NCBI RefSeq assembly: GCF_000016825.1
Contig: NC_009513.1
Span: 441,501-505,500 of the forward strand
From: Limosilactobacillus reuteri subsp. reuteri
Lineage (GTDB): Bacteria > Bacillota > Bacilli > Lactobacillales > Lactobacillaceae
Length of the DNA: 64,000 nucleotides
Reading direction: 5' to 3'
The translations under genes were made by a program, and so were the position numbers. This document shows, in pieces, positions 21,102 through 56,837 of this stretch; positions within the stretch are counted from its first letter, which is position 1, and every line of letters begins with the position of its first letter. The notes under the pieces are model-generated. The model made no database searches, was not told the origin of the DNA, and was given only the letters and a program-made list of their open reading frames with translations.

Positions 21102-22922
21102 ATGTGTGGAATTGTTGGAGTTACAGGAACTGACAAGAGTTTGTCAATTCTAATTGATGGATTAAAGCGGCTTGAATATCGTGGATATGACTCTGCAGGA
21201 GTTTACGTTAATGATCAACAAGGACATGATTACCTTGTAAAGCGGCCAGGTCGGATTGCTAATCTAGAAGCGGCCCTTGGAGAAGAAGTTCATGGTTTAG
21301 CCGGTATTGGTCATACCCGGTGGGCTACTCATGGTGAACCAAACGAAGCCAATGCTCACCCTCAATACTCTCAAGACGAACGGTTCTACTTAGTTCATAA
21401 CGGTGTAATTGAAAATTATGCTGATTTAAAGAAAGAATACTTATCTGACATTAACTTTGTTAGTCAAACTGATACAGAAGTAATTGTTCAATTAGTTGAT
21501 AAATTTGTAGTTGAATCTGGAATGTCAACAGAAGCAGCCCTCCTTAAGGTTCTTCGTTTAATCAGCCCAGATTCTTCATATGCATTTGTATTGATGGATA
21601 AAGAACAACCAGATACATTATTTGTTGCTAAAAATAAGAGTCCATTACTAGTCGGTATTGCTGATGGTTACAACATGGTTGGTTCTGATGCAATGTCAAT
21701 GATTAAAGAAACTAATACCTTTATGGAAATCGGTGACCACGAGTTGGTAATCGTTAAGCCAGATCACGTTACTGTTAAAGACTTTGATGGTAATGAGATT
21801 GATCGGCCAACATTTAAGGTTGATATGGATGCTAATGCCGCAGATAAAGGTGCGTACCCATACTACATGTTAAAGGAAATTGACGAGCAACCAGCTGTTA
21901 TGCGGAAGTTAGTTCAAGAATACTTTGGCGACAATGATATAGCACAAATTAATGAAGAGATGTTAAAAGATATGGCAAATGCCGACCATCTTTACATCGT
22001 TGGTGCCGGTACAAGTTATCATGCCGGTTTAGTAGGTGCGCGTATTTTCGAAAAACTTTGTGGAATTCCTACATCTGTTCATATTTCATCAGAATTTGCT
22101 TATGAACAACCACTTCTTTCTAAGAAGCCATTCTTTATCTTCTTAAGTCAAAGTGGGGAAACTGCTGATAGTCGTGAAGTGCTTGTTAATGTTAATAAGC
22201 ATAATTGGCCAAGTTTAACAATTACGAATGTTGATAAGTCAACGCTTTCTCGTGAAGCAACTTACACTGAATTACTTTACGCTGGTCCAGAAATTGCCGT
22301 AGCTTCAACAAAGGCTTACACTGCCCAAATTGCTGTCGAAGCTATTCTTGCTCAAGCATTGGGTGTCTACATGGATAAGCAAGCAGCTAAAGACTTTGAC
22401 GTTAAGCACCAATTAGGATTAGTTGCTAATGGTATGCAATCAATTACTGATAGCAAGAAGAAAGTAGAAGAAATTGCTTCTCGTTATCTCTCTAAATCTC
22501 CAAGCGCCTTCTACATTGGCCGGGGAATGGATTGGTCAGTATCACTTGAAGCTGCTTTGAAGTTAAAGGAAATTTCATACGTTCAAGCGGAAGGTTTTGC
22601 ATCTGGTGAATTAAAGCATGGAACAATTGCTTTAATTGAAGATCAAACTCCAGTGATTGGGATCATTACCCAAGATCGGACTGCTGGTTTAACACGGAGT
22701 AATCTTGAAGAAACACAAGCTCGTGGGGCCAATGCAATTACAATTGTTTCACGGCATCTTGCAAAAGAAGACGATACATTCGTTCTTCCCGATGTCGATG
22801 AAGTTTTGACGCCACTTCTTAGCGTAATTCCAGCACAATTGTTGGCTTACTACACTAGTCTTGGTAAGGGACTTGATGTTGATAAGCCACGTAACCTCGC
22901 AAAGTCTGTTACAGTTCAATAA
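21102..22922 (+). CDS. glmS: glutamine-fructose-6-phosphate aminotransferase
   Basis: Makes glucosamine 6-phosphate from fructose 6-phosphate and glutamine. At 606 aa it has the N-terminal nucleophile Cys2 in MCGIVG, the glutaminase segment IGHTRWATHGEPN, a first SIS domain with GAGTSYHAG, a second SIS domain with GRGMDWSVSLEAALKLKE, and the C-terminal KPRNLAKSVTV. It is transcribed separately from glmM, with operator-like sites in its promoter. The leader (about 70 bases) is too short for a glmS ribozyme. Confidence 0.97.
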   Translation: MCGIVGVTGTDKSLSILIDGLKRLEYRGYDSAGVYVNDQQGHDYLVKRPGRIANLEAALGEEVHGLAGIGHTRWATHGEPNEANAHPQYSQDERFYLVHNGVIENYADLKKEYLSDINFVSQTDTEVIVQLVDKFVVESGMSTEAALLKVLRLISPDSSYAFVLMDKEQPDTLFVAKNKSPLLVGIADGYNMVGSDAMSMIKETNTFMEIGDHELVIVKPDHVTVKDFDGNEIDRPTFKVDMDANAADKGAYPYYMLKEIDEQPAVMRKLVQEYFGDNDIAQINEEMLKDMANADHLYIVGAGTSYHAGLVGARIFEKLCGIPTSVHISSEFAYEQPLLSKKPFFIFLSQSGETADSREVLVNVNKHNWPSLTITNVDKSTLSREATYTELLYAGPEIAVASTKAYTAQIAVEAILAQALGVYMDKQAAKDFDVKHQLGLVANGMQSITDSKKKVEEIASRYLSKSPSAFYIGRGMDWSVSLEAALKLKEISYVQAEGFASGELKHGTIALIEDQTPVIGIITQDRTAGLTRSNLEETQARGANAITIVSRHLAKEDDTFVLPDVDEVLTPLLSVIPAQLLAYYTSLGKGLDVDKPRNLAKSVTVQ

Positions 22923-23020: not shown

Positions 23021-23049
23021 TTGACTTACATTTATGGAAACGCTATCAT
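23021..23049 (+). promoter_or_regulatory. promoter overlapped by a cre site
   Basis: TTGACT (23021-23026), 17 bases, TATCAT (23044-23049). TGGAAACGCTATCA (23035-23048) is a full match to the CcpA cre consensus and covers the spacer and -10, a repressing position. It drives only the short terminated unit at 23056-23137. Confidence 0.7.
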
Positions 23050-23055
23050 AATAGT

Positions 23056-23137
23056 TGCAAGGTATAAAGTAATTACCTTCTAATCAATTCTCTTTCTCTC
23101 TTATGCCGATCATCGTCTTTTAGACGGTGATTTTTTT
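23056..23137 (+). ncRNA. putative CcpA-repressed small RNA, about 82 nt
   Basis: It starts about 7 bases after a near-consensus promoter and ends at a 9-bp stem (ATCATCGTC / GACGGTGAT, 23109-23131) with a seven-T tail. It contains no usable ORF. The middle (about 23080-23105) is an unpaired pyrimidine-rich stretch with TCTCTTTCTCTC, able to pair with purine-rich ribosome-binding sites. The layout (cre-controlled promoter, C/U-rich seed, terminator) resembles S. aureus RsaI in logic, not in sequence. The next gene has its own -10 (TATAAT, 23150-23155), so this is not simply a leader. Confidence 0.5.
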
Positions 23138-23182
23138 ATTTAAACTCGCTATAATGATAAGGGTTGAAAGGGGAATAACAAC

Positions 23183-23494
23183 GTGGAAGAACAACACGAA
23201 ACGTTAACATTAATTGAGGAAATTACCCGTAATGACGGCTCAAAATATTATGAAATTGGTAATATGGTTCAAAATGGGCGTGCAGAATTAGCAGCTGAAC
23301 GGGGTTTTATTAAAGAGGTTCGTATTTTAGAACTAAATATCCCTCATTCTAAAAATGTTATTAAATATGAACACTTTATAAATACTCACTATAAGATGCA
23401 GACTGAAGCAATGGATCATTGGGAAGAATGGAAACGTCCCCCAGAGATTGAAGAGGTTGTTCAAACGATCTTAAAAGAAAATCATATTGGGTAA
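23183..23494 (+). CDS. conserved-looking hypothetical protein, 103 aa
   Basis: A soluble acidic protein starting at GTG 23183 after AAAGGGG; no domain that I recognise. It has a strand-turn start (TLTLIEEITRNDGSKYYEIG) and a charged helical C-terminus with WEEWKRPPEIEEVVQTIL. It lies 61 bases before the O-acetyltransferase gene and may be co-transcribed with it. The ORF has a sound ribosome site and codon use like its neighbours, so it is likely real. Confidence 0.65.
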   Translation: MEEQHETLTLIEEITRNDGSKYYEIGNMVQNGRAELAAERGFIKEVRILELNIPHSKNVIKYEHFINTHYKMQTEAMDHWEEWKRPPEIEEVVQTILKENHIG

Positions 23495-25891: not shown

Positions 25892-26698
25892 ATGATTAAG
25901 ATGATTGCGCTAGACCTAGATAATACGCTTTTAAATAGTAATAAAGAAATTAGTCAACGTAATGAACATGTCCTAAAGCAATTACATCAAGAGGGAATTA
26001 AGGTAGTGCTTTGTACTGGCCGCCCAATCAATGCAATTTGGCCATATATTGAACAGCTTGGTTTAACTGATTCAGATGATTACACAATTACGTTTAATGG
26101 CGGATTAGTTATTAATAATGAATCACGTGAACATCTTTTTGAATTAGGGATGAAAAAGAGTGATTTACTGCCACTATTTTCTTATGTTAAACGAAAAAAG
26201 ATTCCCCTCAATGTTTTAGACTTTGAACGGGTATACGAATTAAATGATTATCCAGGATCTATTTATCGGACAGTGTTAAAGAATATTGAATTCCAATCTT
26301 TGCCAATGAGTGATATGCCGGAAAAAACTTATAGTAAAGCTGTAATGGCAATCACCCCTGAAAAATTGTCTACTATTATAGGAGAACTTCCAGCTAATCT
26401 TAAAGCGCAGTATCATGCAGTTCAATCCCAACCGATGATAATGGAATTTTTACCTAAAAAATTAAATAAGGCGGTTGGATTGAAGGCCTTACTGGATCAT
26501 TTTGGTGATGATTTTAGTAATTTAATGACATTTGGGGATGCTGATAATGATCTTGAAATGATCAAAGCTGCGGCTCAAGGAATTGTAATGGAAAATGGTC
26601 TTCCTAACGTTAAGGCAGTGGCGACAGCAATCACAGATACAAATGATAATGATGGAGTTGCAAGGTATTGTGAACGTTATTTTGCAACACTTTTGTAA
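25892..26698 (+). CDS. HAD-superfamily phosphatase (Cof/YidA type)
   Basis: A cytosolic 268-aa phosphatase. Motif I is LDLDNTLLNSN (nucleophile Asp8 and acid Asp10), motif II CTGRP, motif III the Lys in KLNKAVGLK, and motif IV GDADNDLEMIKAA; the C2B cap lies in the middle. Members dephosphorylate sugar phosphates, FMN or PLP; the substrate here is not evident. It is the last gene of the operon. Confidence 0.9.
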   Translation: MIKMIALDLDNTLLNSNKEISQRNEHVLKQLHQEGIKVVLCTGRPINAIWPYIEQLGLTDSDDYTITFNGGLVINNESREHLFELGMKKSDLLPLFSYVKRKKIPLNVLDFERVYELNDYPGSIYRTVLKNIEFQSLPMSDMPEKTYSKAVMAITPEKLSTIIGELPANLKAQYHAVQSQPMIMEFLPKKLNKAVGLKALLDHFGDDFSNLMTFGDADNDLEMIKAAAQGIVMENGLPNVKAVATAITDTNDNDGVARYCERYFATLL

Positions 26699-30543: not shown

Positions 30544-30572
30544 TTGTGAAAGCGTTTACCATATGATACACT
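30544..30572 (+). promoter_or_regulatory. cre site and promoter of the glucose-type permease gene
   Basis: TGAAAGCGTTTACC (30547-30560) matches the CcpA cre consensus except for the last base. It overlaps TTGTGA (30544-30549), which is spaced 17 bases from TACACT (30567-30572). An additional CG-centred half-site (AAAGCGCTT) lies just upstream. This predicts carbon-catabolite control of the downstream gene. Confidence 0.6.
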
Positions 30573-30616
30573 TATATCTCGTAATAATATTACGGATTGA
30601 TAGGAGAGAATTTTTT

Positions 30617-31477
30617 ATGAACTACTTACTTGCTTTAATCCCTGCGATTGGTTGGGGGATTATGCCGCTGATCACTGGTAAGATCGGTGGTTCAACGATT
30701 AACCAAATGTTTGGTATTGGTGCCGGTGCTACGATTGTTGGGTTGGTTGCGTTTATTATCGGTCATCCAACTGTTACAACGACTGGATTCTGGTTCTCAG
30801 TACTGTGTGGGGCTTTGTGGACAATTGGTCAAATTGGACAATTCGTTTCATTTAAGCGGATGGGTGTTTCAAACACTATTCCACTATCGACAGTATTTCA
30901 ATTAGTTGGTAACTCTTTGATTGGGGTTATTATCTTTGGAGAATGGCGTGGAGCACGTGCCCTTACTATTGGTTTCATCGCCTTAGCAATTGTTATTGTT
31001 GGTGCTTTGATGACCTCTGTTACTGATCAGAGCAGCGGAAAGAAAGTTACTGTCCAGAATTTCCTTTTTCTATTAATTACTTCTATTGGTTACTGGGTTT
31101 ACTCAGCATTCCCAAAGATGCCAATGGTTGCTAATGACAGTTCTTTAGGAATTTTCCTTCCAGAAATGCTTGGTATTTTACTTGGATCTGTTATTTATGC
31201 TATTTGTTCAGGAAATATTGATTCCTTCAAGCAAAAGGAACAATACCTCAATATCTGGGGTGGTATTTCTTGGGGAATTGCGGCCTTAGCTTATATCTTT
31301 GCTGGACGGGCATTAGGAATTAATACGGCCTTTGTCTTCACGCAAATGAACGTTATCATTGCAACAATTGGTGGTATCTTAGTTCTTCATGAACACAAGA
31401 CTCGGCGGGAAATGTCATTTACAATTGCCGGAATCATCTTTATTGTTGCCGGAAGTATTTTAACTATTTTTGCTTAA
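30617..31477 (+). CDS. sugar uptake protein, GRP/GlcU-RbsU family
   Basis: A 286-aa membrane protein with 10 hydrophobic helices and the family segments ALIPAIGWGIMPLITGKIGG at the start, a central GALWTIGQIGQFVSFKRMGVS and NVIIATIGGILVLHEHKT near the end. Members (GlcU, RbsU) are proton-coupled glucose or ribose carriers. ATG 30617 follows TAGGAGAG; the reading from 30563 has no ribosome site. The cre box supports a sugar role. Pgi lies 0.9 kb downstream, consistent with non-PTS glucose use, but the exact sugar is not decided. Confidence 0.85.
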   Translation: MNYLLALIPAIGWGIMPLITGKIGGSTINQMFGIGAGATIVGLVAFIIGHPTVTTTGFWFSVLCGALWTIGQIGQFVSFKRMGVSNTIPLSTVFQLVGNSLIGVIIFGEWRGARALTIGFIALAIVIVGALMTSVTDQSSGKKVTVQNFLFLLITSIGYWVYSAFPKMPMVANDSSLGIFLPEMLGILLGSVIYAICSGNIDSFKQKEQYLNIWGGISWGIAALAYIFAGRALGINTAFVFTQMNVIIATIGGILVLHEHKTRREMSFTIAGIIFIVAGSILTIFA

Positions 31478-36608: not shown

Positions 36609-36623
36609 TGTTTCCGCTTACAT
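36609..36623 (-). promoter_or_regulatory. cre site between the YcbB regulator gene and arcB
   Basis: On the minus strand ATGTAAGCGGAAACA fits every fixed position of the broad cre consensus (WTGNAANCGNWNNCW). It lies 65 bases upstream of the arcB -35 and 110 bases upstream of the divergent regulator, so CcpA could affect either. Confidence 0.5.
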
Positions 36624-56808: not shown

Positions 56809-56837
56809 TTGACAACGTTTACATAAACTAATATGAT
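56809..56837 (+). promoter_or_regulatory. arcA promoter with overlapping cre site
   Basis: TTGACA (56809-56814), 17 bases, TATGAT (56832-56837) is a near-consensus promoter. TTGACAACGTTTACA (56809-56823) matches the cre consensus with one mismatch and covers the -35, so CcpA would repress arcA in good sugar supply. Confidence 0.7.

Follow-up and report, generated by a model that had tools for sequence, protein, structure and literature searches.

A predicted CcpA-controlled small RNA of Lactobacillaceae and its candidate pairing with glcU-type translation starts

Known C/U-rich small RNAs and the Limosilactobacillus reuteri locus

LhrC of Listeria is a C/U-rich small RNA (sRNA) that masks Shine-Dalgarno (SD) sequences. 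RsaI of Staphylococcus aureus, which we take to be the RNA filed in Rfam as RsaOG (RF01775), carries a C/U-rich unpaired segment, and icaR is among its targets. In the sections of the source consulted, RsaI is described as repressed by CcpA and derepressed under glucose starvation, and as repressing glcU_2 (glucose uptake) and fn3K through SD pairing (PMC9266662). Within the lactic acid bacteria, the sRNA ArgX of Lactococcus lactis is reported in a publication in which CcpA is mentioned as well (PMC6586332). Unlike the RNA described here, ArgX is derived from a 3'-UTR, belongs by the title of that publication to the arginine deiminase pathway and comes from another bacterial family. We found no published sRNA of such a sort in lactobacilli in the open-access literature searched. 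The present RNA is itself undescribed in the literature searched; the supplements of a kingdom-wide sRNA prediction of 2008 (PMC2527527) may include it.

In a 64,000-nucleotide stretch of the Limosilactobacillus reuteri subsp. reuteri genome (hereafter the window), the segment 23021-23137 is almost certainly a stand-alone sRNA gene, as judged from its sequence and that of its relatives. A reading made from the letters of the window alone (the sequence-only reading) had proposed here a promoter, a cre site, an RNA of about 82 bases and a terminator, and the sequence of this segment bears out these elements, the RNA being a predicted one. The unit sits between glmS (end at 22922) and a 103-aa gene starting at 23183. 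Its features, with those of the adjoining gene, are as follows.

23021..23049, + strand: promoter TTGACT-17-TATCAT, agreeing with the consensus at 10 of 12 positions
23034..23048, + strand: predicted cre site ATGGAAACGCTATCA (CcpA operator) with 0 mismatches to WTGNAANCGNWNNCW, which we take as the cre consensus for matching; lies over the spacer and the -10 element
23056..23137, + strand: predicted sRNA of about 82 nt, from fold, conservation and covariance-model matches; start placed from the -10 element
23059..23079, + strand: 5' hairpin AAGGTA...TACCTT, from fold and covariation; 95.2% of cells paired, changes on both sides in 2 of 5 pairs
23082..23107, + strand: unpaired core AATCAATTCTCTTTCTCTCTTATGCC, predicted to be the part that pairs; 23082-23100 is invariant across 49 of 49 sequences
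23108..23137, + strand: intrinsic terminator, a hairpin of 11 pairs at 23108-23132 followed by a T run
23183..23494, + strand: conserved 103-aa gene, probably a unit of its own, preceded by its own TATAAT-like box near 23150

The promoter alone is unexceptional, the 2-kb region holding 7 promoter-like sites where 6.1 are expected, and therefore the case must rest on conservation. A TTGAC or TTAAC element is present in the promoter stretch of all 48 loci surveyed, in most of them at the same distance from the RNA. The RNA is predicted to fold at -17.8 kcal/mol (z = -3.8) into the 5' hairpin and the terminator as its minimum-energy structure. The pyrimidine-rich segment is single-stranded in this fold, as the sequence-only reading had claimed (the centroid fold differs in the 5' part), and it turned out to belong to a wider element, being extended on both sides by the strongly conserved core AATCAA...TTATGCC (23082-23107), the whole of which takes part in the predicted pairing described below. 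That the RNA is without an ORF was also confirmed: the ORF list of the window has none of at least 30 aa within it, and the longest ATG frame in this copy is 6 codons by eye.

No Rfam 15 family matched the sRNA at its gathering score, the only matches in the window being a tmRNA and two tRNAs; below threshold, the best E-value of the sRNA block was 0.29. The RsaOG model, which has 147 positions compared with about 82 nt for the RNA here, gave no match in the genome (control genomes were silent too, so that its sensitivity is undemonstrated) and none for the sRNA block at E-values up to 10. LhrC (RF00616) scored a weak 17.2 bits, far below its gathering score of 110. The highest sub-threshold matches were SpF41 (RF02435, 20.5 bits) and MicF (RF00033, 20.9 bits); both are far below the gathering scores of 52 and 79, and their E-values of 0.35 and 0.5 are at chance level. 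The sequence-only reading had drawn a parallel with RsaI in layout, without sequence similarity. This agrees with the silence of the RsaOG model, and the parallel extends to a predicted target of the same family as glcU_2 (PMC9266662, sections consulted), with a predicted pairing that is moderate in the glcU linked to the sRNA in the window. The likeness is perhaps convergent.

The window contains three perfect cre matches against 1.36 expected from shuffles, and therefore it is the position of the cre that matters. The other two lie at 36609-36623 and 56810-56824, both on the minus strand, about the number expected by chance. The earlier claim of a perfect cre overlapping the sRNA promoter holds for the window and carries over to its relatives. 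Forty-nine sequences were surveyed, of which L041 was dropped because its contig begins too close; in all 48 remaining promoters a cre with at most one mismatch is found (31 are perfect), compared with 1.5% of shuffled promoters. Two placements alternate: 28 promoters have the site over the spacer and -10 element, and 20 have it over the -35 element. A cre that shifts yet always stays inside the promoter suggests that repression is by occlusion. The genome encodes CcpA above the curated cut-off (472.3 against 442.35 bits). CcpA binding is what we infer from this predicted operator, and control of the sRNA by CcpA is very likely. Such control, if borne out, would parallel the CcpA repression described for RsaI (PMC9266662).

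Conservation and spread of the RNA

BLAST matched the sRNA block in 47 of 50 Limosilactobacillus genomes. No match was obtained in the remaining three, namely G011 (88% complete), G022 (75% complete) and G034, the last being an assembly stripped of its intergenic DNA, for which we rejected a natural loss of the sRNA and its target sites. In the stretches seen of this public assembly (L392-L394), the genes are joined end to end, with promoters, sRNA and ribosome sites missing; an assembly of this type would yield false absences in any survey of regulatory RNAs. A covariance search in related lactobacilli, which the sequence-only reading had suggested as a check, gave matches to the RNA for 190 of 396 Lactobacillaceae genomes, from 16 of 40 genera (one match per row listed). 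The same model gave 11 matches in 246 genomes of the order, all of them Lactobacillaceae, and among 398 genomes of the class the genome of the window was the only one matched. Stricter filters, by which weak copies may be missed, applied to every scan covering more than 40 genomes.

The 19-nt unpaired segment AATCAATTCTCTTTCTCTC is identical in all 49 aligned sequences, window included. Changes on both sides were observed in 11 of the 15 pairs, and the covariation score of 0.264 (0.157 in shuffles) was reached by none of 500 shuffles. Cells with double-sided changes number 34 against 10.1 in shuffles, and all measures fall when the partners are slid along. In the main terminator helix, each of the 8 pairs exhibits at least one change on both sides. 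Conservation of the hairpin and the seed in relatives, on which the earlier proposal depended, is well supported by the BLAST matches, the invariant core and the covarying hairpins. Phage carriage was not observed, with 0 viral contigs containing the 19-mer.

As is general for a trans-acting sRNA, the locus has, by sequence, its own promoter, an intrinsic terminator and a conserved unpaired seed. The RNA is best filed as a new, unnamed family of a known kind, so far found only in Lactobacillaceae.

Complementarity to glcU-type starts and other candidate targets

Target prediction with the seed region, another check suggested earlier, brought out the start regions of glcU-type genes as the candidate target. 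The copy in the window is located 7.5 kb from the sRNA (duplex energies are predicted, in kcal/mol, here and below).

30617..31477, + strand: glcU-type gene, predicted target; sugar transport protein by PF06800, scoring under the cut-offs of RhaT and RbsU in NCBIfam
30599..30610, + strand: GATAGGAGAGAA, predicted sRNA binding site over the glcU SD sequence, -15.1
30547..30561, - strand: cre-like site upstream of glcU, 1 mismatch

The string GATAGGAGAGAA recurs in 19 of 36 Limosilactobacillus glcU loci, some of which are repeats of one gene. The start of the other GlcU-type gene of this genome was found in a looser 15-nt scan, in which loci were obtained for 30 of 35 matches.

We compared 40 glcU-family starts from genomes with the sRNA and 40 from genomes without it, chosen from the matches listed by list position and linkage and not by their leaders. 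Median duplex energies with the 26-nt core are -16.5 and -9.2, respectively (p = 5e-9; this and the other glcU p values are overstated, the genomes being related and the computation made without a tree). Against shuffled cores, z averages -2.1 for the former and +0.15 for the latter. The shorter window first used gave -14.2 against -9.15 (p = 1.6e-7). When all glcU starts read are included (57 vs 50, that is, the 40 vs 40 plus 27 starts from 30 automatic loci, mostly weaker-pairing paralogues), the medians are -15.2 and -9.45 (p = 3e-9), and removal of five Limosilactobacillus starts leaves 52 vs 50 with p = 2.5e-8. The earlier claim that the C/U-rich segment is suited to masking ribosome sites is consistent with this predicted pairing, which tracks the presence of the sRNA.

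Under a split by protein type that, like the 50-nt window, was chosen post hoc after a first look at the data, the signal lies in one type with an AWGSIGL-like start ('GSxGL'). The 32 GSxGL starts of sRNA-bearing genomes, from 12 genera, have a mean of -18.1 kcal/mol; 28 of them are at -14.5 or lower and four are weak. Means are -9.5 for 11 GSxGL starts in two genera without the sRNA, -10.2 for eight other glcU paralogues in sRNA-bearing genomes and -10.6 for 347 background starts. By genus medians, the 12 genera with the sRNA (GSxGL) differ from 14 without it (any type) at p = 1.4e-5; the median is low in 10 of the 12, and the two weakest genera (g19, g20) are at about -12. Along the sRNA, the 20-nt windows that outperform their shuffled versions are those with starts at 23080, 23084 and 23088 (z = -3.9, -4.5 and -2.6), and the remaining windows have z between -1.9 and +1.0. 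In G118, none of 359 starts sampled from 400 kb of that genome (minimum -21.6) pairs as strongly as the glcU start (-25.3). Leaders of the g38 type (L328, L330, L345) are predicted at -22 to -25 kcal/mol, and one Limosilactobacillus leader (L279) complements nearly the whole core (-30.9).

Among 27 distinct Limosilactobacillus glcU windows the median is -15.1 (p = 1.6e-10 against background); the G034 locus L254 was excluded from this count and is still in an earlier glcU count of the genus. The linked glcU of the window, at -15.1, is no outlier, and 42 of the 347 background starts reach this value. In L287, from a genome that lacks the sRNA, a gene of the window-glcU type scores -14.5. Paralogues resembling the window copy in sequence are weak in several sRNA-bearing genomes from other genera (L289, -10.3; L291, -8.8; L299, -6.6; L306, -7.2), and therefore the window glcU and the GSxGL type are putative orthologues only. 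The sRNA and glcU lie on one contig within about 8-37 kb, by eye, in 15 genomes of seven other genera. They are far apart in G118, G109 and G164; therefore linkage is not required and may be an old gene order. Taken over the family, these comparisons make glcU a likely ancestral target through SD blocking. For the window's own species alone, its status as a target is somewhat favoured.

A wobble complement of the 12-nt seed occurs at five sites of the genome, of which one is opposite the sRNA, one is elsewhere and three are directly before start codons.

G000:C1:290244-290398 (L223, L089): dltX (PF12459), with GAGAGAAGGAGA over the SD sequence; 13-pair seed match, -20.0
G000:C1:577607-577621 (L091): M16-type peptidase (PF05193) with a GTG start; core complement at the start, -23.6
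G000:C1:1261222-1261233 (L092): YfhO (PF09586); core complement at the start, -22.0

The gene dltX belongs to the D-alanylation of teichoic acids. These three sites pair more strongly than the linked glcU, and glcU is absent from the strict 12-mer matches (own genome and sites read from 15 genomes). Both observations favour a rival explanation, in which the RNA is a real CcpA-controlled sRNA of broad action on many purine-rich ribosome sites, glcU being not special and the main targets being others, such as the three genes above in the reuteri group. We consider this unlikely. The dltX site was seen in no more than 11 of the 30 loci obtained from the genus, all belonging to the species nearest the query, and dltX was rejected as the main target on this count. 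Ten of the other loci have printed starts without the site, reading like 'gcgaaaggagcgatt', eight have no start by motif, and L233 belongs to G034; the dltX scores of L228, L229 and L232 are an artefact of a window placed inside the gene. The strict 12-nt pattern GRGRGRRRGRGR was run on the own genome and on 15 genomes of 12 genera, and 39 sites were read from a longer match list, with poly-G runs, sites opposite the sRNA and some others omitted. The only ones of these 39 sites that recur from the own genome are those of dltX and the M16 peptidase; both come from G005, which belongs to the same genus, and a single universal 12-nt target site was rejected accordingly. The glcU complementarity, in contrast, recurs by median in 10 of the 12 genera.

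A second rival takes this complementarity as a by-product of purine-rich leaders shared within a clade, with the RNA acting otherwise, for example by binding a protein. It gains from the relatedness of the genomes, from the possibility that the sRNA-bearing genera form a clade and from a pyrimidine-rich core that could suit an RNA-binding protein. However, the predicted duplexes, often in two blocks, use a part of the core that differs by genus. In G053 and G149 the SD sequence is matched by the 5' half of the core and an AGAGAGA further upstream by its 3' half, and pairing is through GGCAUGAGAGAAAA in G118 and through GCAGAGAGAAAAAGAGAA in G113. The core also beats shuffles of the same composition on average (the mean z of -2.1 vs +0.15), and the eight other paralogues within sRNA-bearing genomes stay at their average of -10.2. 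We regard this second rival as very unlikely. Pairing by different parts of the core while the target letters change would explain why the core is frozen as a whole.

Proposed circuit and genomic neighbourhood

Our preferred reading, which we hold with good confidence, is that the locus encodes a trans-acting sRNA of about 82 nt, repressed by CcpA and blocking the translation of glcU. The computed elements of this reading are the anatomy of the locus, its conservation and covariation, the placement of the cre, the CcpA gene and the glcU complementarity that tracks the sRNA; transcription, CcpA binding, the direction of regulation and duplex formation in the cell are those that we infer. With the preferred sugar plentiful, CcpA would occupy the cre inside the promoter and the sRNA would be off. 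Upon release of CcpA the sRNA would be made, and its unpaired core would pair with the glcU mRNA in one or two blocks, between the start codon and a point about 50 nt upstream of it. The duplex would cover or flank the SD sequence and so block the translation of the sugar-uptake protein. Individual lineages may have gained further mRNA targets, such as dltX in the reuteri group.

A cre-like site (at most one mismatch) is found at 18 of the 32 GSxGL starts with the sRNA, compared with 4.4% of shuffles, and the second glcU paralogue of the own genome has one with 0 mismatches. Such sites are also common without the sRNA, at 19 of 40 glcU starts (6 of 11 GSxGL, 13 of 29 other). Since glcU and the sRNA both have cre-like sites, CcpA would control both. 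Control of the importer and of its silencer would form an incoherent loop, limiting GlcU once the preferred sugar runs out. We incline, if only slightly, to the view that the same circuit was built twice from unrelated RNAs, RsaI and the Lactobacillaceae RNA, with the incoherent CcpA loop maintained in many genera. If the likeness to RsaI is convergent, evolution has arrived twice at the blocking of glcU upon CcpA release. Lactobacilli are of major importance in the gut and in food, and a core identical in every aligned copy, a spread over 16 genera and a predicted target testable by two-sided mutation provide an entry to post-transcriptional sugar control in Lactobacillaceae.

The sequence-only reading had seen in this RNA a sugar-responsive regulator beside cell-wall genes. 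The cre-controlled sRNA is supported as a prediction; action on the neighbouring cell-wall genes is not supported by the mean duplex energies at their starts (glmS, -6.1; glmM, -11.2; acyltransferase, -10.4), and these genes were rejected as targets. The 103-aa gene at 23183, which matched no Pfam or NCBIfam family, averages -14.4 across the genus, nearly as low as the linked glcU, and is possibly an extra target. Orthologues of the Cof-type HAD phosphatase gene (25892-26698) in six species (L033-L037 and L055) exhibit start complements of -18.1 to -20.3; the value is -11.8 in the window itself and the mean over 38 loci is -12.6.

The 103-aa protein gene sits behind the sRNA in several Lactobacillaceae genera. 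Among 57 loci found through this gene, 48 carry the RNA upstream of it by BLAST: L031-L068 are Limosilactobacillus and close records, and 10 are from other groups (Lactiplantibacillus 4, Lentilactobacillus 2, Pediococcus 2, Secundilactobacillus 1, MAG 1). This order, kept also in a Latilactobacillus record with a 58% identical relative of the protein behind the sRNA, would suit a cis-acting leader or attenuator of the 23183 gene, the 'sRNA' being a terminated leader read through at times, but such a reading, which would also undo the earlier sRNA proposal, is hardly credible because the gap between RNA and gene extends to roughly 490 nt (L078) and 360 nt (L081) and no fixed position directly before the gene was found, because most Limosilactobacillus rows have the gene's own TATAAT-like box after the terminator, because an invariant unpaired core is unexpected for an attenuator, and because in nine of the 57 loci (8 Apilactobacillus, 1 MAG) the gene is present but BLAST gave no match to the RNA.

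In Latilactobacillus curvatus, 60% of the RNA is present in two records that are classed as plasmids. In one of them, the above Latilactobacillus record (L397; NZ_CP016468.1, pL127-1), the core is altered at a single position, the first base. This record is 220 kb long, and in it the sRNA is accompanied by a stretch resembling chromosome-type genes.
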